Origin: Aureibaculum luteum
GTDB taxonomy: Bacteria > Bacteroidota > Bacteroidia > Flavobacteriales > Flavobacteriaceae
DNA: 64,000 nt
Direction of reading: 5' to 3'
NCBI RefSeq assembly: GCF_003449015.1
Contig: NZ_QRGD01000005.1
Span: 248,001 to 312,000, forward strand
Numbering within the stretch: position 1 is the first letter of the stretch; the number at the start of each line of letters is the position of its first letter. Both the position numbers and the translations under genes were made by a program. Shown one piece after another: positions 2,499-25,208 of the stretch. The notes beneath the pieces were generated by a model. That model did no database searches and was not told where the DNA came from. It worked only from the letters and a program-made list of their open reading frames with translations.

Positions 2499-5400
2499 CT
2501 ATTTTCTGAATAATGGATCTGCTCCAATAGTACCCACTAAGCTTTTTAGGTAGTCAGCTGAGCTCACCTCTTTAAGTGAGTTTTCGACTTTATGAAATTG
2601 CGTATTTAAATCCAATTCAGCAACCAGTAATGCATTGTTACTTTTTGCAATAAAACTTTCTAAATAGTCTTTTTGTTTTGTATAAAATTGGATATCCTTT
2701 TGTTGTTTGATTTTTAACCTTTCTTTATACCAATCACTATTGATGATATAATCTCTTTCAAAATAACCTCTCAACTCAGGATCACTCATCTCCTTACCTT
2801 CATAATGCCCATATGCCATCATATGTAATACTATTTTTAATGGCGGTATGGCAGATGCTATACTTCCATCTTCAAAATAGCGAATGGCTACTTTTTGTTG
2901 GGCCTCAACAATATTTGCAATACCATCTACATAATCTTCCAACCCTTGTAATTCAGGTTTTAACATCTTTTCATTAAATACAGCATTGGGTTCATCAAAC
3001 AATCGATTTAAACATCGTAAAGAAAACATACTCGTAATACGGTATCCTAACCTACTTGCCAATACTTTTTTACCATTATGCTCAAAATCTTCTAACTTTT
3101 CTAATGATCCATTTGCTATCAACGCTTTTGGATCCCTATCTTCAGGGACCAATCGTGCCCAAATTTCTGGGATTAACAAGCTAATATCATGGTCTACTTT
3201 ATTATCACCACCTACATAACCTGCAGCCGTACTAAATGCATTAGACTCCGTTAAAATATGAGATAATAAGGCATTGTTTAAGTCCGTTGTTGGCGTTAAC
3301 ATATTAAAGGGCCCTTTGGTTAAGGCTCCTTCGGAACCTGCACCTGTAGTAGAAGGAGACTTACCTGTTAAACTACAAATAAAATCCATGAATAACTCAG
3401 GCGTTTCCTGGTAATGAATTGGGTTATAAACTGCCAATGGCCGTATACCCGCTTTTTTATCTACAGGGTTATTTCTTCTTCCTGGTAATACCGCATTTAC
3501 GACATTAATTACAGGATCTTCTGATTTTATTTTTCGGCATAAACGAACACCTATTTCACCTAAATAACTTGCTTCCGTTTCATTGAAAAATATATTAGGC
3601 TCTAAATAACGTGGATTTTTAGTGGGCTCACCATCAACTATTCTAGTATGTGATGGTAGAGCAAAATATTCCTCCTCATTTGCACTCGTTACAACACTTA
3701 TAATTAGATCTTTTACCGGCTGTGTATATTTATCAAAATTGATGGTATCTTCATAAATTTCTACCGCATCTTTTTTCGTTAATAATTCGTAATTAGTTAA
3801 AAACACACCATCTGCAACCAAATCACGTTCAGCACCTTCGTCATATCCCCGTATAATTGCTTCATCAGGTCTTTGAAATAAGTGGGATTCACAATTGGCA
3901 ACTACTTTTAAACTTTTATTTGGATAAAGCGGATTTAAATCTTTAAACTGATTACGTGGTAACGTGATGGAAGCTGAAATATCATCTTCCATTTGAATTT
4001 TTGTTGACGCGGAAAAATCAGATCTTAATTTATTTAACATCCAAATCCCTTCTTGGTTAAATCCAATTCGGACGTAACTACCAACTACCTTATTATTGAA
4101 ATACCATAACCCAGTTCCTTTTTGCCCGTTTATAATTTGAACCGACATACAATCTTTCCAATTCAACCGCTCGTGATCTTGTCGATATAGCCTTTTTACA
4201 AATAAGACCAAAGACCTGATATGAACGGGAATAGTAGTAACAAATTCATTATATGCATCACTATTGTTTTTTGAGGGTGACAATAACTTTACAGCAGATC
4301 CTAAGGTTCTTCCTTTATCTAAAAAGGACCGTGAAGGTGGTAAGGTAGGATCGTAATTTTTCCAACGCTTTGAATAATTAAATTCAATAATTTCATCAGC
4401 CTTTTTAAAGTCCTCGTCAATATCAATAATGTTAAACGAATTATAAGTAATGGCGTTTAGCATAGATTTTGAAATCTCTGATTTTCCACCACCAGAAACG
4501 GTACAAGGCTTGTGACAAAATACACCTTCAGGTGAGGTGTTAACGATTCGCCACAAAGAAATCGCTTGATGTTTTTCTAATCTAAATTTATTACCTGTTG
4601 GATGTATATATGTTTTTACCGGTGATAAAATCAGTTTTTGTTTAGTATTATTATAGGTCCAAGTAATGCTATTGGTATTTGTATTGATATAGGCATCTTC
4701 AGGGATATAAACCAGGTTTGGATATTTCTTATCGATTGCATAATTTGAAGGTTGAATATCAATTCTGTCTCCCAATAAAGCTTTAACATCTTCAAAACTG
4801 AAGCTGTTACCAAATTTGGAATTAAACTTATTACCATCAACAATATCACCCATAACACCTCTAGGGAATGCAATGGCACCACCTGAATGCTCTTCTTCAA
4901 CTAAACCAAATAGGTTTGCAGAATAGCTGATTTGAGTTTTAATTTCTTTTTTAGAATATCCAAAATAATTGTCTGCAATAAGGGTGACTACAACTCCCCT
5001 ATCATCTCTACAAGTTATTTTAAAAGCCCCTCCATCATTGTACAATTCATTTTCATTTTCCCAGCACATTCCGTCATTTCTTTGACGTTCAGTAGCATTA
5101 TCAAAATGAGGCAATCCAACACCTTTTTTCTTAAGGAGTTTTAATTGCGGTGCTAGAATAACACAACCTGTATGTCCTGTCCAATGCTCTGTATCTAATG
5201 CAGCATCATTATGTGCTAAATTTGGATCTCCTGCATTACCGAAAATAGTTTCCACAAAATCTAAATTACTAACCAAGCTTCCTGGAGCAAAAAAGCGAAC
5301 CTCTAAACTCTTTTTTGATATAACACCTTTAACTTCTGGACAAACCACAGGTCTCATTAAAAACGAAACCATTAATTTGGCCTTTTCGTCTTGATTAGCA

Positions 5401-5978
5401 GTAAATGGTAATACTTTTAATTTGTCTGAAGGATTAAATGCTGCATTCAAAAAATGCTTAAATACAATTTTTGGTACTTCTTGCTTATCTAATGGAACTG
5501 GTAATGGCCCTTCTACAATATGAAAAGTACCTTTAGTTGTTCGTTTATCATTTATTGGATTGTTTAAAATACCTTGTTTAATTCTATACGAAGTGATATC
5601 TTCACTTTTAAATGAGTCTCCATTTGGTGGTAAACTCACTTCTCTAGCATGCCCTTTCTGATTTAAAATCAACGTATCGTTAGGTAAATGTATAGAGGCC
5701 CCTTCTAATTCTTCCGCCAAATAATCATTTAAAAAGTTTTGAATTCTAGCATCTGCAGGAGCCAAATGATCTGAAAGTAATCTAGATTTTTCACGAAAAT
5801 TTTGGATCAAACCATTCGTTAATTTTTGAAATTTCGGATTGCATAACTTATCTACAGAATTCTCATCATCATGATAAATAGGTTGACCAAGAGCTGATAA
5901 TTGTAGATTTATATATTGTATCGTATCTTTCCTACTCTGTTTAATTTGATCTTGATTCGATTGGCTTTCCCTACTCAT
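2499..5978 (-). CDS. PPi-type phosphoenolpyruvate carboxykinase
   Basis: A soluble protein of 1159 residues without signal peptide or membrane segments. It has a P-loop-like SGGGKSEISKS (from residue 495) in the place of the PEPCK kinase-1 motif, and blocks such as GHTGCVILAPQ, IADNYFGYSKKE, GKSPSTTGAGSEGALTKGPF (near residues 870-890) and a C-terminus with SLVGTIGADP. From memory these blocks and the length match the 130-kDa pyrophosphate-dependent PEPCKs of Propionibacterium freudenreichii and Entamoeba, a family unlike the ATP- and GTP-dependent enzymes. The known reaction is oxaloacetate + PPi to PEP + Pi + CO2, reversible, linking glycolysis and the TCA cycle while using PPi instead of a nucleotide. 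The gene stands alone and faces the methyltransferase. Many pipelines would call it hypothetical. Whether a classical ATP-PEPCK also exists lies outside this window. Confidence 0.85.
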   Translation of the reverse strand: MSRESQSNQDQIKQSRKDTIQYINLQLSALGQPIYHDDENSVDKLCNPKFQKLTNGLIQNFREKSRLLSDHLAPADARIQNFLNDYLAEELEGASIHLPNDTLILNQKGHAREVSLPPNGDSFKSEDITSYRIKQGILNNPINDKRTTKGTFHIVEGPLPVPLDKQEVPKIVFKHFLNAAFNPSDKLKVLPFTANQDEKAKLMVSFLMRPVVCPEVKGVISKKSLEVRFFAPGSLVSNLDFVETIFGNAGDPNLAHNDAALDTEHWTGHTGCVILAPQLKLLKKKGVGLPHFDNATERQRNDGMCWENENELYNDGGAFKITCRDDRGVVVTLIADNYFGYSKKEIKTQISYSANLFGLVEEEHSGGAIAFPRGVMGDIVDGNKFNSKFGNSFSFEDVKALLGDRIDIQPSNYAIDKKYPNLVYIPEDAYINTNTNSITWTYNNTKQKLILSPVKTYIHPTGNKFRLEKHQAISLWRIVNTSPEGVFCHKPCTVSGGGKSEISKSMLNAITYNSFNIIDIDEDFKKADEIIEFNYSKRWKNYDPTLPPSRSFLDKGRTLGSAVKLLSPSKNNSDAYNEFVTTIPVHIRSLVLFVKRLYRQDHERLNWKDCMSVQIINGQKGTGLWYFNNKVVGSYVRIGFNQEGIWMLNKLRSDFSASTKIQMEDDISASITLPRNQFKDLNPLYPNKSLKVVANCESHLFQRPDEAIIRGYDEGAERDLVADGVFLTNYELLTKKDAVEIYEDTINFDKYTQPVKDLIISVVTSANEEEYFALPSHTRIVDGEPTKNPRYLEPNIFFNETEASYLGEIGVRLCRKIKSEDPVINVVNAVLPGRRNNPVDKKAGIRPLAVYNPIHYQETPELFMDFICSLTGKSPSTTGAGSEGALTKGPFNMLTPTTDLNNALLSHILTESNAFSTAAGYVGGDNKVDHDISLLIPEIWARLVPEDRDPKALIANGSLEKLEDFEHNGKKVLASRLGYRITSMFSLRCLNRLFDEPNAVFNEKMLKPELQGLEDYVDGIANIVEAQQKVAIRYFEDGSIASAIPPLKIVLHMMAYGHYEGKEMSDPELRGYFERDYIINSDWYKERLKIKQQKDIQFYTKQKDYLESFIAKSNNALLVAELDLNTQFHKVENSLKEVSSADYLKSLVGTIGADPLFRK

Positions 5979-6311
5979 TTTTTTTAAGATTTAAGTTGTG
6001 CATTTTTAGAATAATAAACTAAGAACTTCTATGGCTATAAATATAGTCACTAAAAATTGGTTAACCAATTTTATGTCTTACAAAATTCGAGAAAAAACCT
6101 TAGAACAACTTCTGAAAAGAAAACATATTATATAATATGTTTATTTTCAAACAAGTTTATAAAAATTGAATAATTATTAAAGAATAGTTACGTATAAAAT
6201 AGTCAACGCTACTTTATTTCTTGTCATATAATGTGAACAGAGTGGATTAGAAATATCAAAAAACCTAGAATATCAATAAAAAGTAAAAAACAATATATTT
6301 ACACTATGAAT
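5979..6311. other. AT-rich intergenic region upstream of PPi-PEPCK
   Basis: A 333-bp AT-rich stretch that must carry the PPi-PEPCK promoter on the minus strand. I see no ORF with coding character, no clear -7/-33 pair and no strong hairpin. It is followed on the right by the first priA-derived repeat. Confidence 0.5.
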
Positions 6312-6351
6312 TAATAATTATCCAATCTTAATTAAACCGTATCGGTCTATA
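6312..6351 (-). pseudogene. priA 3'-end remnant 1 (last ~40 bp)
   Basis: Plus-strand sequence starting taataattatccaa and ending ccgtatcggtctata matches the last 41 bp of intact priA (13731-13771), with one deletion and two or three mismatches by eye. On the minus strand it still reads TATAGACCGATACGGTTTAA, the codons for YRPIRF. It lies between PPi-PEPCK and the 3' end of the type IX substrate gene and is the leftmost of five copies of this sequence. Confidence 0.8.
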
Positions 6352-6368
6352 GTAGAATAAGACCTCTA

Positions 6369-9300
6369 CTATTTCAATAAAGCAAAATTTCCAGATTTTA
6401 CAGTTCCATCACTAAAAACAAGTTTAAACCAATAATCGTCAGGCGGTTGTAATTTACCGTTATAAAAACCATCCCAATAATAATTTGTATTATTAAGTTG
6501 CTTTAGTAGTTTACCGAATCTATTAAAAATATGTAACGTATAATTTTGATTTATATCTCCATCTAGTTGCCAAGTATCATTTATACCATCGTTGTTTGGA
6601 CTGAAAAACTTTGGAGCATCTATGATAGTAATTTTTTCCGTCAAAAAACCACAACCTTTAACATCTTGCACATAAACAGTATAATTACCACCCAACAAAT
6701 CACTAAATCTATTATCTGTTTGGTAGGTTATATTATCTAAAGAATATTCAAAATCTCCATCACCAGAAACCATCACTTCAATATAATTATCGCCAAAACC
6801 GCCATAATTAATAGTTTCAATTTTGGGCAACGTAGAGCGCACAAAATTAAAAGAAAATGAATTTTGACATAATATTCCATTCTCTAATCGACTTACTGAA
6901 ATGGTATAACTACCTTCTTTTATGAGATCAACATCTTCTGAAGTTGATATCACTGTTCCGTCTTCATATGTCCATTTATAAACATCAAAGTTTGAGTCTA
7001 TTGATATGGGTAGTGATGGTTCTAAGTCACATAAAAAATAATCTTTTTCCAAATCAATTTCAGGTAATTCATTTACAATCAATCTAAAACTAGTTTCTGA
7101 ATAGCATCGATTATTTAATTCGTTTTCTACTTTAACATTAATAAGTTGGTTTTTTACAACTGTATTTTTATAGTTTCTCGGTAAAGGACTGGGTAAGGCA
7201 TTACCCGATTCATTAGAATAAGAAATTTTTAACCCTTGTTGATTACCTATTATATTAAACTCCAAAGTAGATGTGTCAAAATGGGCAAAACCATTGCCTT
7301 CATCACAAGCAAATAAATTAGCTAGTTGATTAATTTGAGGTTGCTCTGAAGTTTTTAAACTTAAATTGGTCTCCGTATAACATTTTGATTCCGAATTTGT
7401 AACTCTTACAATTATAATCTCTTGATTAGGCGAACTATTGGTATAAGGATTAGGTAATGGGCTTGGTAACAGATTACCTCCGCTATCAAAATAAGATACT
7501 TCCATTCCAGTTTGATTTCCTAAAACAGTTGCTTCAATATCAGAGGTGTCAAAATACTCTGAAACACCGTCTTTGTTATCATCGCATCCAACTAAATCAC
7601 TTAGAGTATTTGCAACCGGCGGACTATTTACGCCGATATCGAATTTAGTTTCATTATAACAATTTGTTATTGTATTTGTAACTCTTGCAGTAATAATTTC
7701 TTTGTTTATTATGGCATTTGAGTAATTTGACAATTCAGAATTTGGAATTAAACTTCCGCTCTGATTATAATAAATTACTGAAACATTGGTTTGACTACCC
7801 AAAATCTCATCGTTTAAAGCAGTTAAATCGAAACTTGCAAAACCATTGTTTCCGCTATTACATAAATAGGTATTATCTATTGTATTGGCCTCTGGTAATG
7901 GTTGCACAATTAAATCGAATGAAGTTTCTGAATAGCAACATAAAATAGCGTCATGTGCAACACGAACTGTTATTGTTTCCCTATCTTTTATCAAATTAGT
8001 TAAATGGGTAGGTAAAGGGTTTGTTAACTCTTTTCCGCTTCCATCAAAATAGGTTATTACTTTATCTGTTTGCCCGCCCAATACTTGAGATTCTATATTG
8101 GCAGTACTAAATGTAGTTGAAATTCCGGTACCAAATACGTCTTCACAAGCATAGATATTACTTATTGCATAGGCATTTGGTGGCTCAACTACATCTATTT
8201 TTTCCTCAATTACATAAACATTACTACTATTATCTGTAACAGTCGCAGTTACAGTATATTCACCGTCAACAGAAAAATCGTGCGTAGGAGAAAGATCGTT
8301 TGAAACATTCGATGCTCCAGATGCTGTATCTCCAAAATTCCACACAACGGTTGCTATATCTACAACATTTGTCAAACTAAATTCTTTTAAAAACTCAGAA
8401 CAAATGTTGGTGATATTCATATTATAAGGAATGGCTACGTTGTTGCTTTTACCAGTAACATTAATATAGAAGTTCGCATCTGGGTATCCAAAATCAGCAG
8501 TAGAAACATACTCATCAGGAGGGCTTCCATTCACGCAACCTCTTTGCCAAGATTCACTATTGTCTTTAGCAGAGCCTGCGATAAAAGCCACCCCATCTCC
8601 ATAAATTATCCCCTTATGTACTTCAACTAAAATTCTTTCAACACCTGCAGGAATTACTACTGGAGCATCAAAATCCACCTGAATAATTTGAGAATTACGA
8701 TTTATATTAGGGTTAAGACGTTGGTATTGACTACTACCTATCAAATCTGCTTCAGAAAAAGAGGCCGGAAAGTTACTGTCTATTTTATAAATATTAAAAC
8801 TTATCTCTGGTAAATAACCTGTTTTATTAATACCAACTTGCCCTGAATTAATGGTAAACTCCTCGTTCGTTGATACACCAAAGTCTTCTAAATCAAAAGT
8901 CCTCGCCCAGTATATATAACTTGATTTACATGAATATATATTCGTTTCTATAATATCATAACAAACATTATGAGACAACCTAGTGGTTGAACCCGAACTT
9001 TGTGTGTCCAGTAATTCCCCTGTCACATTTATGAAAAAATTTGCATTCGGAACAGGTAAATTAAGGCTTTCTGTAGGAGTATATGTATAAAGTTCTCGAC
9101 AACCTTGAAACCAAGAAATGTCATTGTCTTGTGCAGTACCAGCAATAAGGACTTTCTTGTAATCAGAATTATAAATATCGTCATATTGAGTAACTTCAAC
9201 TAAAATTCTTTCAACTCCAGCCGGAACAACAATGGGCGTACTAAAATCGATTTGAACAATTTCAGGAGAATCTCCTATAGCGGGAGCTAAAACCAAATTT

Positions 9301-9641
9301 CCGTAACTAAGTGTATTAAGAGTAGTATTAGGGAAATTTGAATCGATGCTATAAATATTAAACACTAACTTAGCACCTTCATAGGAATTACTAATAGCTA
9401 TTTGCCCAGATTTAATAATGAATTGATCAGTTGTAGTTATACCAAAATCAGAAAGTGTAAATGTTCTCGCCCAATATTCATCATAATCACAAGAAGGCAT
9501 CCCCGTTTCAATAGGTGTAGTTCCAATATTATGTGTTAAAGTTATTTGGGCATATGAAACAAAATTAAAGCTAAAAAACACAATCGTTAATAGCATTATT
9601 TTAAGTAGCATATTCATTTTTGAATTTAATTTATTACCCAT
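6369..9641 (-). CDS. Type IX secretion substrate with PKD domain and type B (gliding motility-type) C-terminal domain
   Basis: A secreted protein of about 1090 residues. After a signal peptide (cleavage near FNFVSYAQ) come two homologous beta-domains of about 190 residues, each with YWARTF, VPAGVERILVEV and a final FINVTG. Next is a PKD domain (WNFGD...DGEYTVTATVTD), then about four repeats of roughly 90 residues (for example NTIDNTYLCNSGNNGFASFD), and finally a domain with FFSPNNDGINDTWQLDGD that is the type B sorting signal (TIGR04131). It should be exported by the type IX system and anchored at or released from the surface, probably as an adhesin. Start alternatives are ATG 9677 (overlaps the porP stop), 9641 (chosen; 16 nt after the upstream stop) and 9617. 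It forms an operon with the PorP/SprF gene just upstream. Ligand unknown. Confidence 0.88.
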   Translation of the reverse strand: MGNKLNSKMNMLLKIMLLTIVFFSFNFVSYAQITLTHNIGTTPIETGMPSCDYDEYWARTFTLSDFGITTTDQFIIKSGQIAISNSYEGAKLVFNIYSIDSNFPNTTLNTLSYGNLVLAPAIGDSPEIVQIDFSTPIVVPAGVERILVEVTQYDDIYNSDYKKVLIAGTAQDNDISWFQGCRELYTYTPTESLNLPVPNANFFINVTGELLDTQSSGSTTRLSHNVCYDIIETNIYSCKSSYIYWARTFDLEDFGVSTNEEFTINSGQVGINKTGYLPEISFNIYKIDSNFPASFSEADLIGSSQYQRLNPNINRNSQIIQVDFDAPVVIPAGVERILVEVHKGIIYGDGVAFIAGSAKDNSESWQRGCVNGSPPDEYVSTADFGYPDANFYINVTGKSNNVAIPYNMNITNICSEFLKEFSLTNVVDIATVVWNFGDTASGASNVSNDLSPTHDFSVDGEYTVTATVTDNSSNVYVIEEKIDVVEPPNAYAISNIYACEDVFGTGISTTFSTANIESQVLGGQTDKVITYFDGSGKELTNPLPTHLTNLIKDRETITVRVAHDAILCCYSETSFDLIVQPLPEANTIDNTYLCNSGNNGFASFDLTALNDEILGSQTNVSVIYYNQSGSLIPNSELSNYSNAIINKEIITARVTNTITNCYNETKFDIGVNSPPVANTLSDLVGCDDNKDGVSEYFDTSDIEATVLGNQTGMEVSYFDSGGNLLPSPLPNPYTNSSPNQEIIIVRVTNSESKCYTETNLSLKTSEQPQINQLANLFACDEGNGFAHFDTSTLEFNIIGNQQGLKISYSNESGNALPSPLPRNYKNTVVKNQLINVKVENELNNRCYSETSFRLIVNELPEIDLEKDYFLCDLEPSLPISIDSNFDVYKWTYEDGTVISTSEDVDLIKEGSYTISVSRLENGILCQNSFSFNFVRSTLPKIETINYGGFGDNYIEVMVSGDGDFEYSLDNITYQTDNRFSDLLGGNYTVYVQDVKGCGFLTEKITIIDAPKFFSPNNDGINDTWQLDGDINQNYTLHIFNRFGKLLKQLNNTNYYWDGFYNGKLQPPDDYWFKLVFSDGTVKSGNFALLK

Positions 9642-9657
9642 GCTTATATAAATCATT

Positions 9658-10635
9658 CTAAAATATAGAATTAACATTAGGACACCCTGTTGCTCGTTGT
9701 TTTTTACAAAACATATTCATACCTAATGTAATTTGGTGAAAACCACTATTATCCAATACTACTTGATTGAGTTGATTGGTATACGTATATGATGCCATAT
9801 AACGTTTGTAATTAAACCCAACTATTGGTGTTATTTGTTTCAAATTTTCAACGGCATTTTTCTCTAAATTTTGTCTATACGATAATGCCGCCCAAATCTG
9901 CTTATTATTATCAATATTTTTATATGCTTTTAGATTCACATCTACAGAAAACTCGCTAGTTCTCTCAACCATTTGTAACATTACCGATGGTTCGAACTGT
10001 ACACTTTTTTCCTTTCCAAAATAGTAACCCAACGTTAATAAATAACTTCTTAAGTTTAACGAATCATAGCTGCTATTTTCTAATCCCTTAGTACTTAAAA
10101 GCAAATTTTTAACAGTAAAATAAGCATATGTATCCATAAAATGATATGCAGTACTAAAATCAGTATTAAAATAATTGGTTGACTCTATTATTTGACTATT
10201 TGAAGGGTCTGGAATAACTGATGTAAAACTGGATTGGTCAATTGTATTAATAACATAAGTAAATGACATACCAAAAGATAGTTGATTTAAGGCGTCATCT
10301 CTACCAAAATTAAGGTGATAAGCGTAACTACCTGCAATACCTTTTTGAGCATGAAAACCATTTTTATCATTAAATAATACACCTCCTAAAGCTGCTTTCT
10401 CACTTATTCTTGAATGAAAACTTAATGTTTGTAATGATGGTCCTTCAGAAATTCCATTCCACTGTTGGCGATGCGTTAATCTTAACTTTGCACAATTACC
10501 AATACCAGCAGCTGATGGATGAAGTAAAAAAACATTATCAGACAAATAATCTGTATAAATAGGAAACGTACTTTGAGAGAAAGAACCATAGGTAATAAAT
10601 GCAAAAAATAATATTAAAATTTTCTTGTTTAGCAA
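9658..10635 (-). CDS. PorP/SprF family type IX secretion system membrane protein
   Basis: A 325-residue protein with a signal peptide (MLNKKILILFFAFITYGSFS) followed by an outer-membrane beta-barrel pattern. The family hallmarks are the N-terminal block NVFLLHPSAAGI, LRLTHRQQWNGI and LGGVLFNDKNGFHAQKGI. Proteins of this family sit in the outer membrane and assist secretion of specific type B C-terminal-domain proteins, normally encoded next to them. Here the partner follows immediately on the same strand, so the pair is a dedicated substrate/porin-like module. The core type IX genes are not in this window. The pair sits between two priA-derived direct repeats. Confidence 0.9.
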   Translation of the reverse strand: MLNKKILILFFAFITYGSFSQSTFPIYTDYLSDNVFLLHPSAAGIGNCAKLRLTHRQQWNGISEGPSLQTLSFHSRISEKAALGGVLFNDKNGFHAQKGIAGSYAYHLNFGRDDALNQLSFGMSFTYVINTIDQSSFTSVIPDPSNSQIIESTNYFNTDFSTAYHFMDTYAYFTVKNLLLSTKGLENSSYDSLNLRSYLLTLGYYFGKEKSVQFEPSVMLQMVERTSEFSVDVNLKAYKNIDNNKQIWAALSYRQNLEKNAVENLKQITPIVGFNYKRYMASYTYTNQLNQVVLDNSGFHQITLGMNMFCKKQRATGCPNVNSIF

Positions 10636-10763
10636 CGTTTGGGTTTTATCAATGACAAAGATAAAATTATAACTAATTATTTGAATAAATATTATTTCTT
10701 TTAAGAAATTAGTAATGCAATATGCATATTTTAAAGGATTATTCTTAATCCCAAATCCATACT

Positions 10764-10918
10764 TAATAATTATCTACGTCTACATTAAACCGTATCGGTC
10801 TATAATTAGGTATAGACTGAAAGCTATTTTTTGTTTTATTGCTTTTAATCCGTTTATCGATTTATCTCGAGGTAACTTAATTTAAATGTTTTTAACACGT
10901 TAATCACGAATTCTTGAA
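10764..10918 (-). pseudogene. priA 3'-end remnant 2
   Basis: About 155 bp similar to the 3' end of priA. On the minus strand it reads SRIRD-stop-RVKNI-stop-IKLPRDKSIN, then a 7-nt deletion shifts the frame, and it ends YRPIRFNVDVDNY-stop, protein-identical to the PriA terminus but with synonymous differences (GAC GTA for GAT GTG). The mix of synonymous change and later stop codons suggests an allele that diverged as a working gene before it decayed. It separates the type IX pair from paralog A. The shared sequence continues rightward into the leader of paralog A. Confidence 0.85.
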
Positions 10919-11028
10919 ACTACAAAGAGCTTGGTATAATTTTTGTAGTTATAAAGTGAAATTAATTCAATAAAAAAATCTTACATTTTTATACGTGCAT
11001 ATCTAACATAATCAAAAAACATTAAATT

Positions 11029-11730
11029 ATGAAAATCAAGTTATTTTTAGCATTATTTATGGGGCTTACTATAGCAAGTTACTCTCAAATAGCATTGAAT
11101 CCTTCAGATGCACATGAACCACAAAAATATACGGTTATAACTAAAGAAAATGACACTATTTCTGTTTATGGCCCTAAAGTAAATATTGATTTTATAAATC
11201 GAGGATTTGAGGAATATGACAAAAAAGGGCAGCCAACAGGTGGTCAAATAAACCCTATTAATGATAGCAAAATACTATATAACGATAACGATGGAAAAAC
11301 AATAACTCTAAAATCAGTCACTTTACCAAAAAAAATAAGTGGTGTGTTTTTTGAAAATCCTTTTATGTTTTCATTAATAGAAAATTCAGAACAAGATTTA
11401 AAAAAAGGAAAAATAGATTTTTACGTTCTCCAATATACGAAAGAACCATTAATAGAATCACAATCAGACATAAACCAAGCAAGTAGTGAGGGTAGAAACT
11501 ATTACAAGCCAAAATACGCAATAAAAATTAAATACTATTTCAAAGATTCAAATGGCTTACATCAGATAGATTATAAAAGACAATTTAAACTTTACCCAGA
11601 AATATTAGGTAAAGAAGTATTTGAAAAAATGAAACAATCCAATAAAAGCAGGAAACAGTTTTTATTAGATTACTTTACAGAATATAATCGTAAAATAGAT
11701 ACATCTTTAGTAGCTAATGAGATGATTTAA
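11029..11730 (+). CDS. Secreted protein of unknown function, paralog A of a tandem triplet
   Basis: A 233-residue protein with a signal peptide (cleavage after TIASYSQ). The mature part begins with KYTVITKENDTISVYGP, has no Cys cluster, no membrane segment and no lipobox, and is rich in Lys, Tyr and Asn. I do not recognise a family. It is followed at 1.0-kb intervals by two paralogs; A and B are almost identical along their whole length. The leader (about 80 bp before ATG) is also conserved between the three copies, including the TTGGTATAAT stretch, so each copy probably has its own promoter. A periplasmic or surface role is inferred only from the signal peptide. Confidence 0.75.
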   Translation: MKIKLFLALFMGLTIASYSQIALNPSDAHEPQKYTVITKENDTISVYGPKVNIDFINRGFEEYDKKGQPTGGQINPINDSKILYNDNDGKTITLKSVTLPKKISGVFFENPFMFSLIENSEQDLKKGKIDFYVLQYTKEPLIESQSDINQASSEGRNYYKPKYAIKIKYYFKDSNGLHQIDYKRQFKLYPEILGKEVFEKMKQSNKSRKQFLLDYFTEYNRKIDTSLVANEMI

Positions 11731-11761
11731 TGTTATTTAATAGCTGAATTTTAAAGTAATC

Positions 11762-11919
11762 TAATCATTATCTATATTAAATCGTATTGGTCTATAATCA
11801 ATTATCGGCTGAAAACTAATTTTAATATTTTGTATACGGTTTTAGATACGTTTATCGATTTATCTTGGGGTAATTTAAATTAAAAAATACTTACGATATG
11901 TTAATTACGAATCCTTGAA
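11762..11919 (-). pseudogene. priA 3'-end remnant 3
   Basis: About 158 bp similar to the priA 3' end, starting 32 bp after the stop of paralog A. Minus-strand reading ends YRPIRFNIDND-stop, a plausible alternative PriA C-terminus that differs from the local one (YRPIRFNVDVDNY-stop). Its first ~53 bp (plus strand) are identical to remnant 4, while the remainder is more decayed. Confidence 0.85.
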
Positions 11920-12029
11920 ATAACATAGGATATGGTATAATTGTTGTAGTCATAAAATGAAATTAATTCAATAAAAAAACCTTACATTTTTATTCGTTCA
12001 TATCTAACATATTCAAAAAACTTTAAATT

Positions 12030-12731
12030 ATGAAAATTAAGTTATTTTTAGTATTATTTATGGGGCTTACTATAGCAAGTTACTCTCAAATAGCACTGAA
12101 CTCTTCAGATGCACATGAACCACAAAAATATATGGTTATAACTAAAGAAAATGATACAATTTCAGTATATGGTCCTACTGTAAATATTAATTTTCTAAAT
12201 CGAGGATTTGAGGAGTATGACAAGAAAGGGCAGCCAACAGGCGGTCAAATTACTCCTATTAATTTTATAAAAATACGATACAACGATAAGGATGGTAAAA
12301 CGACAACTCTAAAATCAGTCACTTTACCAAAAAAAGTAAAAGGTGTATTTCGTAAAAGTCCTTTTATGTTTTCATTAATAGAAAATTCAGAACAAGATTT
12401 AAATAAAGGAAAAATAGATTTTTACGTTCTCCAATATACAAAAGAACCTTTAATAGAATCACAATCAGACATAAACCAAGCAAGTAGTGAGGGTAGAAAC
12501 TATTACAAGCCAAAATACGCAATAAAAATTAGATATTATTTTAAAGATTCTAATGGTTTACATCAGATAGATACTAAAAGACAATTTAAACTTTACCCAG
12601 AAATATTAGGTAAAGAAGTATTTGAAAAAATGAAACAATCCAATAAAAGCAGGAAACAGTTTTTATTAGATTACTTTACAGAATATAATCGTAAAATAGA
12701 TACATCTTTAGTAGCTAATGATATGATTTAA
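12030..12731 (+). CDS. Secreted protein of unknown function, paralog B of a tandem triplet
   Basis: A 233-residue protein nearly identical to paralog A, starting exactly 1001 bp after it. Differences cluster in residues 45-115 (for example NFLNRG for DFIN RG and VFRKSPFMF for VFFENPFMF), while the signal peptide and the C-terminal 110 residues are close to invariant. The high identity and the 1-kb period show a recent duplication or gene conversion. It is bounded on both sides by priA-derived remnants. Function unknown. Confidence 0.75.
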   Translation: MKIKLFLVLFMGLTIASYSQIALNSSDAHEPQKYMVITKENDTISVYGPTVNINFLNRGFEEYDKKGQPTGGQITPINFIKIRYNDKDGKTTTLKSVTLPKKVKGVFRKSPFMFSLIENSEQDLNKGKIDFYVLQYTKEPLIESQSDINQASSEGRNYYKPKYAIKIRYYFKDSNGLHQIDTKRQFKLYPEILGKEVFEKMKQSNKSRKQFLLDYFTEYNRKIDTSLVANDMI

Positions 12732-12762
12732 TGTTATTAAATAGTTGAATTTAAAAGTAATC

Positions 12763-12918
12763 TAATCATTATCTATATTAAATCGTATTGGTCTATAATC
12801 AATTATCGGCTGAAAGCTATTTTTAATTTTTTGGATTACTGCTTTTGATAAGTTATCGATTTATCTTGGGGTAACTTAATTAAAATAGTTTTAATATGTT
12901 GATTTCTAATTCTTGAAA
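12763..12918 (-). pseudogene. priA 3'-end remnant 4 (mosaic)
   Basis: About 156 bp similar to the priA 3' end. The left part (to about 12814) is identical to remnant 3, whereas the right part (from about 12841) is almost identical to the intact local priA (13812-13890), with one 1-nt deletion that breaks the frame and a few substitutions. This mosaic indicates recombination between copies. Confidence 0.85.
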
Positions 12919-13028
12919 CAACAAGGAGCTTGGTATAATTTTTTTTGTCATAAAATGAAATTAATTAAAATAAAAAATCTTACATTTTTATTTGTTTATA
13001 TCTAACCTGCTCGAAAAACATTAAAATT

Positions 13029-13715
13029 ATGAAAACCAATTTATTTTTATACTTTTTTATCGGAATCACCACATTTAGTTTAGCTCAAGATTTATCGAAT
13101 TCCTCGAACGTATCTAATACTAAAATATATACGGTAATAACTGAAAAGAACGATACAATGTATGTTATTGGTCCAAAAAAATCATCGCTGAATTCCATAC
13201 ATAGAGGCTTTGATATTTATGATAGAAAAGGACAACAGACAGGTCGCATGATGATCCCGATTAATAATAAATATATATATTACAAAGATGAATATGGTAA
13301 TTCAATAAAACTAAAATCAGTTCCCTTAGAAAAAAAAATTAAAGGAGTGTTATTTAAGTCTCCTTTTATGTTTACTTTAATTGAAAATACCAAGCAAGAT
13401 TTAAAAAAAGGAAAAGTAGATTTTTACTATCTTCGATATACAAGACAACCAATGCAAGAAACAGATATAAGTATAGAAAATAGCACAGGTAGAAATCCCT
13501 ATAAATCAACATCCTTACCAAAAATTAACTATTATTTTAAAGATTCAAATGGTTTACATCAGATAGATTCTAAAAGACAATTTAAACTTTACCCAGAAAT
13601 ATTGGGTAAAGAAGTATTCAAAAAAATGAAACAATCCAATAAAAATAGGAAACAGTTTTTATTAGATTACTTTACTGAATACAATAAGAAAATAGATAAT
13701 TCAATTAAACAGTAG
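13029..13715 (+). CDS. Secreted protein of unknown function, paralog C of a tandem triplet
   Basis: A 228-residue protein with signal peptide (cleavage near FSLAQD). It shares KYTVIT-like start (IYTVITEKNDTMYVIGP), GFDIYDRKGQQTG and KSPFMFTLIENTKQDL with A and B but is clearly more diverged in the first 180 residues. From YYFKDSNGLHQID onward it is almost identical to A and B, which points to gene conversion of the 3' end or to selection on the C-terminus. Its stop lies 14 bp from the end of intact priA, with which it is convergent. Function unknown. Confidence 0.75.
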   Translation: MKTNLFLYFFIGITTFSLAQDLSNSSNVSNTKIYTVITEKNDTMYVIGPKKSSLNSIHRGFDIYDRKGQQTGRMMIPINNKYIYYKDEYGNSIKLKSVPLEKKIKGVLFKSPFMFTLIENTKQDLKKGKVDFYYLRYTRQPMQETDISIENSTGRNPYKSTSLPKINYYFKDSNGLHQIDSKRQFKLYPEILGKEVFKKMKQSNKNRKQFLLDYFTEYNKKIDNSIKQ

Positions 13716-13729
13716 TTTCACTTAATCTA

Positions 13730-16177
13730 TTAATAATTATCCACATCTACATTAAACCGTATCGGTCTATAACTTGGTATAGACTGAAAGCTATTTTTAA
13801 TTTTTTGTAGTACCGCTTTTGATAAGTTTATCGATTTATCTTGTGGTAACTTAATTAGAATAGTTTTAATATGTTGATTTCTAATTCTTGATATAGCAGG
13901 ACTCGTGGGTCCTAAAATATTAGTCCCAAACGTGTTATATAAAGACTTATACAACCAATCAGCTCCTGAATTTACTTTGATATAATCTCTGTGCTTTAAT
14001 GTAATTTTAACCATCCGTAATATGGGTGGGTACTTGTATTGATGACGTTCGTACAGTTGTTCTTTGTACATCGTAGCATAATCATTGGTTGTAACTTGTT
14101 GCAGTATTTGATGATACGGGTTAAAGGTTTGGATAGCAACTTTACCTCTTTTTTTGGCTCGCCCTGCCCTACCAGAAACTTGCACCAACAACTGAAAACT
14201 CTTTTCATGTGCCCTGAAATCTGGAAAGTTGAGCATATTATCAGCATTTAATACACCAACTAGCGAAACATTATCAAAATCTAAGCCTTTAGAAAGCATT
14301 TGTGTCCCAACTAAAATATCAATTTCACGAGATTGAAATGCCTCAATAATTTTATGATAACCGTATTTTCCACGTGTGGTATCCAAATCCATTCTCCCAA
14401 TTTTATGATTAGGAAATAATTCTTGTAATTCCAATTCAATTTGCTCTGTACCAAAACCTTTAGTGTCTAAGCTCGGATTTCCACAAGCTGAACATATTTT
14501 AGGTAGTGGCTTGTGATATCCACAATAATGACATTTTAATTCGCCACGTAATTTATGGTAGGTTAAACTGACATCGCAATTAGGGCATTGTGGAGAAACA
14601 CCGCAAGACTTACACTCTACTATTGGTGAAAATCCACGTCTATTTTGAAATAATATAACCTGTTCTTTTTCATCTAACGCTTCATTAATTAGCACCATTA
14701 GTCGTTCAGAAAAATGCTTGGTCATACGTTTTTTACGGTAGCCTTCTTTAATATCTACCAGTTCAACTTCTGGTAACATAACATTACCAAAACGTCGGTT
14801 GAGCTCTACCAACCCGTATTTTTTTTGTTCCGCATTGTAATAACTCTCTAAAGACGGAGTGGCACTTCCTAAAAGCACTTTCGCCTTATGCAAATTGGCC
14901 AGTACAATGGCTGCGTCTCTTGCATGATAACGTGGTGCTGGATCAAATTGTTTGTACGAAGTTTCATGTTCTTCATCTACAATGATCAACCCCAATTCTG
15001 AGAATGGTAAAAATATAGAAGATCTTGCACCTAAAATTAACTGTGCTTTATCTGATTTGTTTAAAATATTATTCCACACTTCTACCCTTTCGTTTAAGGA
15101 ATATTTAGAGTGAAATACAGCAATTTTATTTCCGAAATATTTTTGTAAGCGATCAATTAACTGAGTGGTTAATGCAATTTCTGGTACTAAATATAATACT
15201 TGTTTACCTTGCTTTAATACTTGGTCAATTAGTTTTACATAGATTTCCGTTTTACCACTTGACGTGATGCCATGCAATAAAACAACTTCGTTTTTTTCAA
15301 AACTTTTATTGAGTTCATTATAGCATTCTTCCTGAAATTCAGATAGTTCCTTGAAACTATCGGTAGCCTCTTTAAAGTTAACACGATCTGTTTGGATGGT
15401 ATAAATTTCAAACACTTCTTTTTCTGCCAATGCTTTTATTACCGCAGGTGATACCTTACTCACCTCTTTAAGTTGCTTCTGCTTTATTGGTTTTTTGGTA
15501 GCTCCATGTAATGAAAAATAAGTCATTACCGCATTGCGTTGCTGATTGGCTCTACTCAATTCTTCTAATAAATCCCCTAACTCTTTCTGATCATTATACC
15601 GTTCATTTAAGCGGATATACTTTATTAATTTAGGTGTGTATTGCTCTATAATTTCTTCCTGTAAAACAATTGCTTTCTTTTTGAGTAAATCATTTAAAAT
15701 GGGTAAAACACGTTTTTTATCTAGAATGGCACTAATTTTCTGAATAGGTAATACCTCTTGATGCTCTAACGCTTCTATGATTAAAAATTCATCATCCGTT
15801 AAGGAAGATTCCAACATGAATTCTTTATTTTTTATAACCTGTGTTTCACTTTCCAATAAAAATGTTGACGGTAATGCAGAACGCAATACTTCACCTAAAG
15901 AACACATATAATAATTGGCTATCCATTGCCAATGTTTCAATTGCTTTTTTGTAATAATCGGATACTCATCTAAAATTTGAAAAATATCCTTGGCTTGATA
16001 TGCCGTAGGTTCCTTTTGATGCACTTCTGCCACTATAGCCGTATATATTTTCGATTTTCCAAAAGGTACAGCCACACGCATACCTGGTTCTAAAAAATCC
16101 TTTTCAGCTTCCGTTATACTATACGTAAAGAGTTGCTGTAAGGGTATTGGTAATATGACGTTTACGAAGTTGTTCAA
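13730..16177 (-). CDS. priA: Primosomal protein N' (replication restart helicase PriA)
   Basis: An 815-residue DNA helicase that reloads the replisome at stalled forks. It shows the N-terminal 3'-end DNA-binding domain, Walker A GITSSGKTEIY (about residues 302-312), Walker B VDEEH (about 398-402), GSATPSLES, and the PriA zinc-binding domain CKSCGVSPQCPNCDVS followed by CHYCGYHKPLPKICSAC (about 517-560), then helicase motifs GTQMLSKGLDFDNV and QVSGRAGR. Length and order are normal for the family. It ends YRPIRFNVDVDNY. It stands alone; its 3' end is copied four more times at 6312-12918, and accessory genes are stacked against it. Confidence 0.97.
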   Translation of the reverse strand: MNNFVNVILPIPLQQLFTYSITEAEKDFLEPGMRVAVPFGKSKIYTAIVAEVHQKEPTAYQAKDIFQILDEYPIITKKQLKHWQWIANYYMCSLGEVLRSALPSTFLLESETQVIKNKEFMLESSLTDDEFLIIEALEHQEVLPIQKISAILDKKRVLPILNDLLKKKAIVLQEEIIEQYTPKLIKYIRLNERYNDQKELGDLLEELSRANQQRNAVMTYFSLHGATKKPIKQKQLKEVSKVSPAVIKALAEKEVFEIYTIQTDRVNFKEATDSFKELSEFQEECYNELNKSFEKNEVVLLHGITSSGKTEIYVKLIDQVLKQGKQVLYLVPEIALTTQLIDRLQKYFGNKIAVFHSKYSLNERVEVWNNILNKSDKAQLILGARSSIFLPFSELGLIIVDEEHETSYKQFDPAPRYHARDAAIVLANLHKAKVLLGSATPSLESYYNAEQKKYGLVELNRRFGNVMLPEVELVDIKEGYRKKRMTKHFSERLMVLINEALDEKEQVILFQNRRGFSPIVECKSCGVSPQCPNCDVSLTYHKLRGELKCHYCGYHKPLPKICSACGNPSLDTKGFGTEQIELELQELFPNHKIGRMDLDTTRGKYGYHKIIEAFQSREIDILVGTQMLSKGLDFDNVSLVGVLNADNMLNFPDFRAHEKSFQLLVQVSGRAGRAKKRGKVAIQTFNPYHQILQQVTTNDYATMYKEQLYERHQYKYPPILRMVKITLKHRDYIKVNSGADWLYKSLYNTFGTNILGPTSPAISRIRNQHIKTILIKLPQDKSINLSKAVLQKIKNSFQSIPSYRPIRFNVDVDNY

Positions 16178-16488
16178 AAATGTTTGTGGTTTTACTGTTT
16201 GTTATTACTTTTTGTAAATTAATTTCGGGTATTCATATTTGTGAATGTCACCTTGAGCGGAGTTGAGAAGTTAACCGTTTACTATCAAAACTTACCAACC
16301 ACAAAAAGCAAAGTTAAAATTTTAATTCTTAGAAAATTGTTCTCAATACAATTTTCTTCCGGACGCATCGCCAGAAAATCAATCGAACTATTGAAAGCAA
16401 TGGATTAAAAATTAGAAAAAATACAAATACTGGTATTATTTAAAATACTGTATCTTTATAAACATCAGGTAATCATTAAATTAATAAA
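16178..16488. other. Intergenic region between divergent priA and dienelactone hydrolase genes
   Basis: The 311 bp must contain both promoters. At 16247-16270 it holds gtcaccttgagcggagttga and four further bases, a sequence of the type often scattered in flavobacterial intergenic regions (from general knowledge, not checked). Otherwise nothing recognisable. Confidence 0.4.
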
Positions 16489-17376
16489 ATGAAGAATATA
16501 AAAAAAGAAGATATCAATCAAGAAGTTTTTGATTTGTACGATAGTTATGTACATAATAAGATTGACCGACGAAATTTTATGAATAAGCTTTCGGTATATG
16601 CCGTAGGTGGATTAACCCTTCCTTCATTATTAGCCTTTTTAATGCCGAAATATGTAGAAGCTCAGAAAGTAAATTTTAATGACCCTCGTCTAAAGTCAGA
16701 ATATGTTGAATATGAATCACCCAAAGGCGGTGGAAAAATGCGTGGTTTATTAACAAGACCTATTAAAAGCACTACGAAATTACCTGGAATAATAGTAGTA
16801 CACGAAAACAGAGGTCTTAATCCACATATTGAAGATGTAGCTCGTAGAGCTGCTCTTGAAGGCTTTATAGCTTTTGCACCAGATGCATTATTCCCTTTAG
16901 GAGGATATCCTGGTACTGATGATGAAGGTAGAGAACTACAACGAAAGAGAGACCGAAATGAAATGCTAGAGGATTTTATCTCTGCTTATGATTTATTAAA
17001 AGCCCACAAAGAATGTACGGGTAATGTTGGTGTTGTTGGTTTTTGTTTTGGTGGCTCCATTTCTAACATGATGGCTGTACATATTCCCGATTTAAAAGCT
17101 TCAGTTCCTTTTTATGGAGGGCAACCAGAAACTAAAGATGTACCAAAAATTAAGGCTCCATTACTCCTCCAATTTGCTGAATTAGACAAAAGGGTAAATG
17201 CAGGTTGGCCAGCTTATGAAGCTGCACTAAAAGAGCATAAAAAAACATATACGGCTCATATGTATAAAGGTGTAAATCATGGATTCCACAATGACACCAC
17301 TCCTAGGTATGATGAAACTGCAGCGAAACTTGCATGGAAACGTACGATTGCTTTTTTTAAGGAAAAGTTAATTTAA
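16489..17376 (+). CDS. Dienelactone hydrolase family protein with Tat signal
   Basis: A 295-residue alpha/beta hydrolase. The N-terminus carries a twin-arginine motif DRRNFMNKL (Arg27-Arg28) followed by a hydrophobic stretch [16 protein letters not shown], so export by the Tat pathway is predicted. The dienelactone hydrolase triad is visible: Cys in GFCFGGS (about residue 186), Asp in AELDKRV (about 233) and His in VNHGFHND (about 264). The reference enzyme hydrolyses dienelactones in chlorocatechol breakdown, but most exported homologues have unknown substrates. The Tat motif sits about 25 residues in, later than usual. It is monocistronic and divergent from priA. Confidence 0.88.
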
Positions 17377-17535
17377 GTTTCACCATTTTTAAACTAAAAT
17401 TTATCTTCTCTATTTTATCAATTTCATTTTAATTTTAACATTTAAAAATGAAAACAATTTGATAATTTAATTCTAAAAATAAATACTTCTTAAGTATATA
17501 CTGCACAGAGCCCTTATAAGACAAGGGTTCTGGAC

Positions 17536-17552
17536 TTTGGCACGATGCTTGT
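17536..17552 (+). promoter_or_regulatory. Sigma-54 (RpoN) -24/-12 promoter
   Basis: TTTGGCACGATGCTTGT matches the consensus TTGGCACG-N4-TTGC: the -24 half TTGGCACG is perfect and the -12 half is TTGT instead of TTGC. It lies about 60 bp before the ATG at 17611. An imperfect hairpin, AGAGCCCTT with AAGGGTTCT, sits just upstream (about 17508-17531). An RpoN-dependent activator would be needed. Confidence 0.7.
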
Positions 17553-17610
17553 AATTATCTTCACGGTAGTGTTAACCAAAACCTATTTAATAACCTTTAA
17601 CACTTTAATT

Positions 17611-18822
17611 ATGAAAAAAATTACATTATTACTCGTAACAGTCTTCGCACTGAGCCTTAGTCCGCAAATTTATGCTGCTGATGCAAACACTTATTTAGAT
17701 ACTCAAAACAGGAGAATTTATGAAAATAATAAATCCTTCACATTCATTGAAGAAGGAATTACATTTTCAATATTCCAAAATGGAGAGTTTGATTTTTATA
17801 TTAACCCAAGACGTGGTATGCATGTTGGAGTTGATTTAGACAATGTAAGTATCAGTTACAATTCAGGTTACAATTACGAGCCTTATGTACAATATGATGA
17901 TTATGGTGCTATAATTCAAATAGAAAACACGCCAATTTACTATGACTCTTATGGGCGTATAATCGAAGCAGGTGATGTAACTATTAATTACCGTTCTAGT
18001 AGAGTAAACCGAATAGGTAGCTTAAATATCTATTACAATTCTTACGGAGGGTATTCGTACCAAAGAGGCTATGTAAATGTATTTAATAGACATCATGTGT
18101 TTCACCCATTTCATAACTTTTTTGTACTACCATTTTTTAATAGATCGATACTAAGCTATAAGCCTTATAGAAATAGATATAGACCAACACGTTACAGCTA
18201 TTATTATGGTAAAAACAATCACAAAAGAAAGTATAATAGAAATTATAATAGTAACAGAGGATATAAAAAAATAAACTCTAGAGTAAGAACACGTAATTCT
18301 AGTGTTGCAAGATCAAAAGGAGTTAACAGTCGATCTACTAGTAAAAGAAATAACACCGTAACAAGAAGACAAACAGCTCAACGTAATACGGCGACTAGAA
18401 ACAATAGAAATAGCACCAGTTCTAATAGAACAACAAATAAAACACCTAAAAGAACAGTTGCACAAAACAGAAGTGTTACACCTCGTAATAGTAGAACTAT
18501 TAACACTCAAACAAGAAGTACAGTTCAGAATAGAAGTGAGAGAAAACCTGTACAACGTACAGTGAGAACACAGTCTCGTAAAGCAAATGAAAGAAGTATT
18601 TCTCAAAGAAATTCTTCAACAAAAAACAGAAGTTCAGTACAAAGAACAGAAAGAAAACCTGTACAACGTACTACAAGAACTCAAACAAGAAATACATCTA
18701 GTTCTTCTAGAACGGCATCGAAAAGATCTACTCCAACAAGGACTAAATCTACCGTACAGAGAAAAACAAGAACAGCATCTACGTCTCCAGTTAAGAGATC
18801 TTCTTCAAAAAGAAGGATGTAA
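17611..18822 (+). CDS. Exported protein with aromatic N-terminal half and long Arg/Ser/Thr/Asn-rich tail
   Basis: 403 residues from ATG 17611. An in-frame upstream ATG at 17545 lies inside the sigma-54 promoter and would hide the signal peptide, so I reject it. Residues 1-22 (MKKITLLLVTVFALSLSPQI...) are a signal peptide. Residues 23-180 are rich in Tyr/Asn/Gly with repeated IYYNSYG-like units. From about residue 185 to the end the protein is a low-complexity, strongly basic region built from units such as ERKPVQRT and RTQTRNTSSS. Such a tail should be disordered and could bind polyanions (LPS, polysaccharide, DNA). I do not recognise a family. A bidirectional terminator follows. Confidence 0.7.
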   Translation: MKKITLLLVTVFALSLSPQIYAADANTYLDTQNRRIYENNKSFTFIEEGITFSIFQNGEFDFYINPRRGMHVGVDLDNVSISYNSGYNYEPYVQYDDYGAIIQIENTPIYYDSYGRIIEAGDVTINYRSSRVNRIGSLNIYYNSYGGYSYQRGYVNVFNRHHVFHPFHNFFVLPFFNRSILSYKPYRNRYRPTRYSYYYGKNNHKRKYNRNYNSNRGYKKINSRVRTRNSSVARSKGVNSRSTSKRNNTVTRRQTAQRNTATRNNRNSTSSNRTTNKTPKRTVAQNRSVTPRNSRTINTQTRSTVQNRSERKPVQRTVRTQSRKANERSISQRNSSTKNRSSVQRTERKPVQRTTRTQTRNTSSSSRTASKRSTPTRTKSTVQRKTRTASTSPVKRSSSKRRM

Positions 18823-18855
18823 AAAGTAAGAAAAGGGAAAGTTGATGCAGAAAAA

Positions 18856-18877
18856 AGGCTTACCAATTGGTAAGCCT
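18856..18877. terminator. Bidirectional intrinsic terminator
   Basis: AGGCTTACCAA and TTGGTAAGCCT form a perfect 11-bp palindrome flanked by A6 on the left and T6 on the right. It lies between the Arg-rich protein gene and the convergent VOC gene. Confidence 0.9.
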
Positions 18878-18894
18878 TTTTTATCGTTTATTTT

Positions 18895-19311
18895 TTAATT
18901 GGTTTTAAAAACATCTTTTGTAACAGCAAATGTTTTAAACTCGACCATATAATCATTTGGGTCCTTTACAAAAAATGACGTGTGCTCTCCATTTTTACCT
19001 TTTAAGAATGTTATCTCTTCAAAAAGTTCTATGTGTTGCGACGTAATTCTTTTATATAATTTTTCCCAAACTTCATGAGTGACAATAATCCCAAAATGAA
19101 ATGATGGTAAAATTTTACCTTCAAAACTATAATTTTGAAAGCTAAAATCAAATTTACCCGATTTGGTAAACGTAATTTGATTGCCGTATAAATTGATATC
19201 TAACCAATTTTGAGCAACTCTACCTAAGTCAGCACCTAATTTATCTATATAGAAATTTCTCGTTGCTTCTATATCTAAACAAGGCAATGATAAATGAAAT
19301 GGTGCATTCAT
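18895..19311 (-). CDS. VOC family (glyoxalase/bleomycin-resistance fold) protein
   Basis: A 138-residue protein with the vicinal oxygen chelate pattern: HLSLPCLDIEATRNFYIDKLGADLGR at the start, a central SFHFGIIV strand with a His, and FFVKDPNDYMVEFKTF at the end with the usual metal-binding Glu. It is a single VOC module and probably dimerises. Members act as dioxygenases, isomerases or resistance proteins; no specific substrate can be named. It is separated by 75 bp from the acidic protein gene upstream on the same strand, so co-transcription with the polyamine operon is possible. Confidence 0.82.
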   Translation of the reverse strand: MNAPFHLSLPCLDIEATRNFYIDKLGADLGRVAQNWLDINLYGNQITFTKSGKFDFSFQNYSFEGKILPSFHFGIIVTHEVWEKLYKRITSQHIELFEEITFLKGKNGEHTSFFVKDPNDYMVEFKTFAVTKDVFKTN

Positions 19312-19385
19312 ATGATTCGGATTTAAAGTTAAATGGTAACTCGTTGTTCCACGAAAAAACGGGACTAACGAATGCTCATTAGAAA

Positions 19386-19766: not shown

Positions 19767-19806
19767 GAGTTTTTTTATTTTTTATAGTTTTGAGGTTATA
19801 ATATTA

Positions 19807-23099: not shown

Positions 23100-23157
23100 T
23101 CTTAGTTTTAAATTTTTATATTATTTATTCTTCAAGTTAAAAAAAATAATATAAAAA

Positions 23158-23238
23158 TTAGACAAGAATATACATATAGCCTTTCGCTAAGCGAATAAAC
23201 TTCAGATTATTAAATCCGAGATAGGAAGAAGAAACCAT
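23158..23238 (-). CDS. Possible 26-residue leader peptide of the speA operon
   Basis: On the minus strand ATG at 23238 opens a 26-codon frame ending in TAA at 23158-23160, 58 nt before the speA start. It begins MVSSSYLGFNNLKF and ends GYMYILV. An A-rich GACGAAAAAATT precedes the ATG, as in many genes here. A palindrome, TTCGCTAAGCGAA (23183-23195), lies within the frame, and a 12-bp hairpin lies 28 nt upstream of it. Position and size resemble the ornithine-sensing leader peptide of enterobacterial speF, but I see no sequence similarity. A 26-codon ORF can occur by chance, so this is a candidate only. Confidence 0.3.
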   Translation of the reverse strand: MVSSSYLGFNNLKFIRLAKGYMYILV

Positions 23239-25198: not shown

Positions 25199-25208
25199 AT
25201 TACATCTA

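Follow-up and report, generated by a model that had tools for sequence, protein, structure and literature searches.

How genes come to pile up directly behind a housekeeping gene is the question raised by the priA locus of the marine flavobacterium Aureibaculum, where new genes appear to have been added repeatedly just behind priA. Several of these additions appear to have left a scrap of the old priA end, by which the order of arrival can be partly read. The window analyzed here, a stretch of 64,000 nucleotides from Aureibaculum luteum, lies inside one 371-kb contig of a 5.1-Mb draft genome of 48 contigs (the host genome, G000). Distances (d) are given in bases downstream of the priA stop codon, with the window position being 13730 - d.

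Intact priA occupies positions 13730..16177 of the minus strand and encodes Pfam PriA domains, including PF18074 (PriA_C), and its 3' end (13730 to about 13892) is both the repeated sequence and the proposed stacking site. The original prediction had reported copies of this tail at 6312, 10764, 11762, and 12763, and a search of the host genome with the priA tail returned, besides intact priA, four strong partial matches, all at this one place and all in the orientation of priA. The remaining matches in the host genome had E values of 0.018 or worse, and the best E value in a control with reversed tails was 3.3e-4. All four remnants lie on the minus strand. R1 (about 6311..6351; 93%, E = 2.5e-10) consists of the last ~42 bp of a priA gene, followed by the flank that trails intact priA in the related genome G009. 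R2 (10763..10924; 81%, E = 1.3e-39) has a divergent 5' part and a native-like 3' part, R3 (11763..11925; 78%, E = 3.6e-28) is divergent throughout, and R4 (12762..12919; 89%, E = 6e-49) has a native-like 5' part and a divergent 3' part. R2 and R3 are disrupted by nonsense and frameshift changes; R4 is readable as PriA apart from a single 1-nucleotide deletion, and it may have been the working priA end until paralog C arrived. The claim that R2 ends identically to PriA at the protein level is correct for the last 13 residues only, since R2 ends in SFQSIPNYRPIRFNVDVDNY and a stop where the window PriA has SIPSY, a position that reads SIPNY in G009 and G007. The alternative PriA end ascribed to R3 and R4 was confirmed as NIDND followed by a stop, but two codons present in all 15 Aureibaculum priA genes examined are missing from it.

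In addition to the four reported remnants, a fifth, R0, was recovered when the regions downstream of priA in 15 Aureibaculum genomes were compared with the tails of these genes; it lies just left of the window (window positions -397 to -341, contig positions 247603-247659, d14071-14127), where it adjoins a gene for a 511-aa protein. The remnants start about 160, 57, or 42 bp upstream of the stop codon, and about 100 bp upstream in a further case from another genus (G087, described below). These variable starts speak more for events driven by homology than for events at one fixed point, although the overlap of the R2 and R4 switch points, described below, would fit a fixed point.

The cargo nearest to priA consists of three genes on the plus strand, paralogs A (11029..11730, 233 aa), B (12030..12731, 233 aa), and C (13029..13715, 228 aa), which are ~1-kb tandem paralogs with one common junction, and A to C are the only part of the locus that has the form of a tandem duplication. 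Paralog C is of unknown family and is probably secreted, having a signal-like N terminus as judged by eye. Comparison of A with B finds differences in 43 of 233 codons, 22 of which are synonymous, and the C protein is 61 to 62% identical to both. The segment upstream of C (12917..13028, plus strand) is 84 to 85% identical to those of A and B, and the homology of the three upstream segments up to the priA-tail junction indicates that this junction probably arose once. The DNA of C is 86 to 96% identical to that of A over window positions 11542-11691 and far less so elsewhere, a local similarity that suggests gene conversion. No Pfam match above the cut-off was obtained for A to C, nor any NCBIfam or PADLOC match for A and C, and the predicted fold of C had a mean pLDDT of 36. 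Relatives of A to C were found in 5 of 396 other genomes of the family (G364, G044, G291, G047, and, doubtfully, G292), one of them with internal stop codons, and no convincing priA scrap was found near the homologs in these five genomes, the best match (E = 9.7e-5) being on the opposite strand. A scan of genome contigs with paralog C as the query found no relative. Between R1 and R2 lies a pair of minus-strand genes related to the type IX secretion system (T9SS), one (9658..10635) encoding a PorP/SprF family protein (PF11751, TIGR03519) and the other (6369..9677) a 1102-aa secreted protein with a T9SS type B sorting domain (TIGR04131, PF13585), whose full-length relatives, at 49 to 59% identity, are scattered over genomes of the family.

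The closest relatives of the host genome by PriA, G009 (98%) and G007 (97%), reveal how this cargo is layered. In G009, the priA end and its 3' flank align with R1 and the flank of R1, with the similarity beginning inside the last ~42 bp of priA; d7420 of the host genome is aligned to d1 of G009, and the next 10.9 kb are 92.8% identical. It follows that about 7.4 kb, comprising paralogs A to C, the type IX genes, and an additional priA end, is present here and absent in G009, which is thus an empty site at whose counterpart this DNA was added at the priA end with a duplication of ~42 bp. The addition is bordered on both sides by direct repeats of the priA end, namely, R1 and priA itself. This empty site together with R1 displays what an addition anchored in a core gene entails, a homologous end in the anchor gene and an old end that has been displaced, and G087 offers a parallel. 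The stretch that trails R1 in the window directly follows intact priA in G009, where a gene encoding a 1159-aa protein starts 329 bp behind priA. This gene (2499..5978, minus strand, in the window) is part of the older layer. Its product could be assigned to no family in Pfam (E up to 1), NCBIfam, or PADLOC; among 15 Aureibaculum priA loci, 4 encode it, and in two of these (G009 and G011) the gene immediately follows priA. R0 is older as well, as it is common to both genomes, lying at d6650-6701 in G009 and adjoining the same 511-aa gene. The two R0 copies are identical at 44 of 57 positions and have their best matches in the tails of G016, G010, and G006; neither the host tail nor the G009 tail matches R0 at E 0.01, and the G007 tail weakly matches the R0 of the host genome. 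G007 has four other genes at the place of the 7.4-kb addition, with no remnant detectable there, and by eye these look like genes for an outer-membrane protein, a carbonic anhydrase, a SulP transporter, and a TetR-type regulator. The alignment of G007 to the host genome breaks at the start of R0 and resumes just past the region of the 511-aa gene (G007 d9329; host d14071-15910), as if R0 and this gene had been gained or lost as one piece.

The interval behind priA varies across the genus. The first ORF behind priA belongs to 12 families among 15 Aureibaculum loci. The same fixed island in close relatives, which was to count against repeated insertion, is not what was observed. Gene order was surveyed in loci with at least 3 kb downstream, after removal of four duplicates of genus genomes and of loci shorter than 3 kb. 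Outside Aureibaculum, rpsF follows on the same strand in 161 of 177 loci, at less than 1.5 kb from priA in 156 of these 161 and at a median of 936 bp; in Aureibaculum, it was found in 8 of 14 loci, never within 1.5 kb (0/8) and at 1.8 to 22.8 kb. A LytTR-type gene was present within 3 kb behind priA in 106 of 175 loci of a first survey. Remnants occur in only 2 of the 15 Aureibaculum loci, and the cargo of the others, G007 included, has no detectable tail. The claim of repeated insertion at the priA 3' end with no integrase nearby is supported by the empty site in G009, the older R0, the different cargo in G007, and the variation across the genus.

No tyrosine integrase (PF00589) was found in the interval or within 50 kb of priA on the genus contigs examined; among the 15 genomes with a priA match, the priA contig of 8 carries none, several of these contigs being short. 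The nearest PF00589 match in the host genome lies about 40 kb beyond R0 and 55 kb from priA, and the predicted lack of an integrase therefore holds for this class of enzymes. The PF00589 search detected no integrase in the inserted DNA, as an integrase-borne island would have, or beside the array, as an integron would have. Tyrosine integrases are present in all 17 genomes of the genus. Genes of the ComEC and DprA types are present, and they were also found in 10 and 11 of 14 control genomes, respectively, a frequency that gives them little weight as evidence.

The tails themselves record part of the history. With the tails of the window priA, G009, and G007 as native references and with 2000 permutations for each contrast, R4 has 2/108 and then 12/48 mismatches to the native sequence (0 of 2000 permutations), and R2 has the reverse arrangement, 18/87 and then 1/69 (4 of 2000). 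R3 has 29/154 mismatches in an even spread, the observed contrast being reached by 1667 of 2000 permutations. At R3-specific sites, R4 is native at 21 of 22 in columns 9 to 108, and in columns 115 to 160 R4 is R3-like at 11/11 and R2 is native at 11/11. The switch points fall in columns 109 to 114 for R4 and 100 to 114 for R2, and these intervals overlap. In its 5' part, R2 carries the R3-specific state at 6 of 22 sites (a CGT codon and a stop codon are among them) and the native one at 15, in addition to many changes of its own; two of the six R3-specific states also occur elsewhere in Aureibaculum. A copy decaying in place would accumulate changes in both of its halves; the two halves of R4 must therefore have had different histories, and the contrasts show this for R2 also. 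R3 may be an incoming tail, with R4 and R2 being products of crossovers between an R3-type tail and native priA; gene conversion is another account, and decay followed by gene conversion from priA fits the 5' half of R2 too.

A tree built from the final 162 bp joins R2 to G009 (support, 47) and R3 to R4 (100) and places the latter pair between the group of the window, G009, and G007 and the other Aureibaculum (84 and 85); this tree is short, with many low supports and one misplaced outgroup. The grouping of all remnants with the local priA, which had been named as grounds for rejecting an import, was half observed. When 17 genus genomes were searched for a donor with R3 and its adjoining DNA as the query, the matches outside the host genome were all to resident priA ends (8 genomes). 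The window priA is 96.2% identical to that of G009 in the last 160 bp and 95.3% identical in the rest of the gene, and the tail shows no rise in divergence that would point to an import of the present end. No clear import tract was found in priA, identity being patchy along 17 kb upstream. The idea of foreign tails is partly supported; a foreign origin of the tails is plausible, not proven. Along 13730-31000, identity among the host genome, G009, and G007 shifts strongly between 400-bp stretches and the closest pair changes, which could reflect either frequent recombination among these species or uneven constraint. Within the same region are a 425-aa ORF (17545-18822, plus strand) whose second half is of low complexity and rich in Arg, Ser, and Thr and a 126-aa ORF (19386-19766, minus strand) with a very long aspartate run.

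Across the whole survey, displaced priA tails (E <1e-5) were found in 3 of 215 loci (209 distinct by the 400 bp around the stop codon, 194 with at least 3 kb downstream), namely, those of the host genome, G009, which shares R0, and G087. In G087, the order over d1-1800 is priA, LytTR gene 1, a priA remnant, LytTR gene 2, and rpsF. LytTR 2 is at a tree distance of 0.07 from the orthologs of relatives and LytTR 1 at 0.42, and the remnant is 90% identical over 48 bp to the priA tails of relatives and 76% identical over 62 bp to its own tail. G087 is a case of the same additive pattern in a second, independent lineage. Its PriA end is divergent, a feature given no weight since 3 of 17 others compared diverge about as much. 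In a control for other genes (2307 ORFs), a 3'-tail copy outside other ORFs of at least 150 aa was found for seven entries, namely, the host priA twice (in the genome and in the window), the G087 priA, and four other genes, and 5'-end copies were found for four genes; the host priA alone has more than one 3'-tail copy. The control set consisted of 184 partly overlapping loci, nearly all centered on priA, and does not give a genome-wide rate.

We consider it probable that the priA 3' end is an integrase-free stacking site in this Aureibaculum lineage, at which incoming priA tails entered in the order proposed here. Stacking at the priA end is well supported, with ordinary (RecA-type) recombination as the likeliest mechanism. 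An incoming segment with a priA tail beside its cargo would recombine inside the end of the resident priA, presumably by a single crossover or by one homologous and one illegitimate end; the incoming tail would complete priA, and the old tail would be pushed outward along with older cargo. A block including the 1159-aa gene would have entered at the outset and left R0. The pair of the PorP/SprF and T9SS proteins would have entered after the split from G009 and left R1. A unit of the secreted-protein gene and a divergent priA tail would then have crossed with the native tail, yielding the hybrid R2 and a hybrid priA end. Duplication of this unit would have followed, with R3 being the divergent tail that separates A and B, and with the arrival of C the hybrid end would have been displaced as R4. 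The repeats, the empty site of G009, the older remnant common to both genomes, the differing cargo of relatives, and the mosaics of R2 and R4 are direct observations; the type of recombination, the order of these last three steps, and a donor outside the species are inferred.

A possible, though less probable, account is that most of the locus arose internally: a single gene inserted behind priA was the start, exchanges among the local tails (unequal crossing-over and gene conversion) then produced A to C and the three long remnants, and R1 and R0 are unrelated older insertions. The ~1-kb tandem paralogs with their single upstream junction, the restriction of high C/A identity to one short stretch, which suggests conversion, the grouping of R2 with G009, and the ordinary window priA tail are all consistent with such an origin. 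However, there are four tails for three genes, and R2 requires an insertion that displaced it; in addition, R3 and the 3' part of R4 are unlike all native tails, and the almost unchanged 5' part of R4 shows that the divergence of its 3' part is not decay in place. Tandem duplication had already been considered as an alternative that would explain A to C and not R1, and this assessment is upheld and extends to R0 and R2, which it also leaves unexplained.

It is unlikely that a site-specific recombinase acts in trans at a short core in the priA tail, with the units being nonautonomous cargo. The overlap of the R2 and R4 switch points, the start of R0 at the CAG that ends the same block, and the direct repeats that bound each addition would fit such an enzyme, but any PF00589 match on the contigs examined is more than 50 kb from priA, the remnants begin at no single point, and two switch intervals would overlap by chance about one time in seven by our estimate. 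Slightly more doubtful still is the idea that the ~1-kb unit of gene and priA tail is a portable cassette needing no integrase, which would be excised as a circle between tails and reenter at the priA end of a relative by a single crossover, with R3 being its own tail and R2 and R4 being integration junctions. The homology for reentry would travel with such a unit, in the way that the attachment site travels with an integron cassette; we grade this reading lower because the link of the R2 5' part to R3 (the 6 of 22 shared states) is weaker. An assembly artefact or chance similarity is very improbable. The assembly is a draft in 48 contigs, and tandem repeats of ~1 kb are hard to resolve, but the copies differ by several to over 20% and all lie within one 371-kb contig, R0 is also present in the single-contig genome of G009, and E values reach 6e-49, the lowest value in the control being 3.3e-4.

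Stacking at the priA end, the reading that we prefer, has counterparts among known systems. In the minimal mobile elements of Neisseria, strains carry different gene cassettes between the same conserved genes, and the priA site is similar in that differing cassettes lie between the same conserved flanking genes; displaced partial copies of a flanking gene are, to our knowledge, absent from the minimal mobile element idea. In integron cassette arrays, new units enter beside a fixed gene and push the older ones back, with a repeat after each unit. The priA site shares this entry beside a fixed gene, the shift of older units, and the repeat per unit, but it has no integrase nearby, and its repeat is a decaying piece of a core gene. 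The nearest published model found is that of the type VI secretion system (T6SS) clusters of Vibrio cholerae, in which sequential displacement builds arrays of immunity genes (Kirchberger et al. 2017, PMC5361080). Its authors propose homology-facilitated illegitimate recombination with no specific integration site, and integron arrays are compared with this displacement. Both systems have a conserved upstream anchor, additions behind the anchor, and older genes that are retained and shifted downstream. In V. cholerae, as described there, the anchor is a region of the secretion cluster and the cargo consists of effector and immunity genes, whereas here the anchor is a housekeeping gene and the scraps are its own 3' end; no toxin or immunity gene was recognized in the cargo at the priA site. 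Hotspots without mobile elements beside recombining core genes have also been described (2017, PMC5635113), and the priA site resembles these in having variable cargo between fixed core genes (here priA and rpsF) and no integrase. The model given there is a double recombination that replaces content, whereas here content was added and duplicated gene ends were left. A search of the open literature for priA as a genomic-island or insertion site gave nothing relevant as judged by title. The priA site is a well-preserved variant of integrase-free, core-gene-anchored gene accumulation, and what sets it apart from the published models is the succession of scraps that derive from the end of the housekeeping gene itself, together with the hybrid tails.

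With its empty site, its layers of different age, and its hybrid ends, the locus provides a readable record of gene pile-up beside a housekeeping gene without visible mobile-element machinery, and the units of gene and tail offer a concrete, testable design for integrase-free cassettes. The interval behind priA is nearly constant in the other Flavobacteriaceae surveyed, and its comparison with that of Aureibaculum could show what turns a frozen place in the genome into a hotspot.
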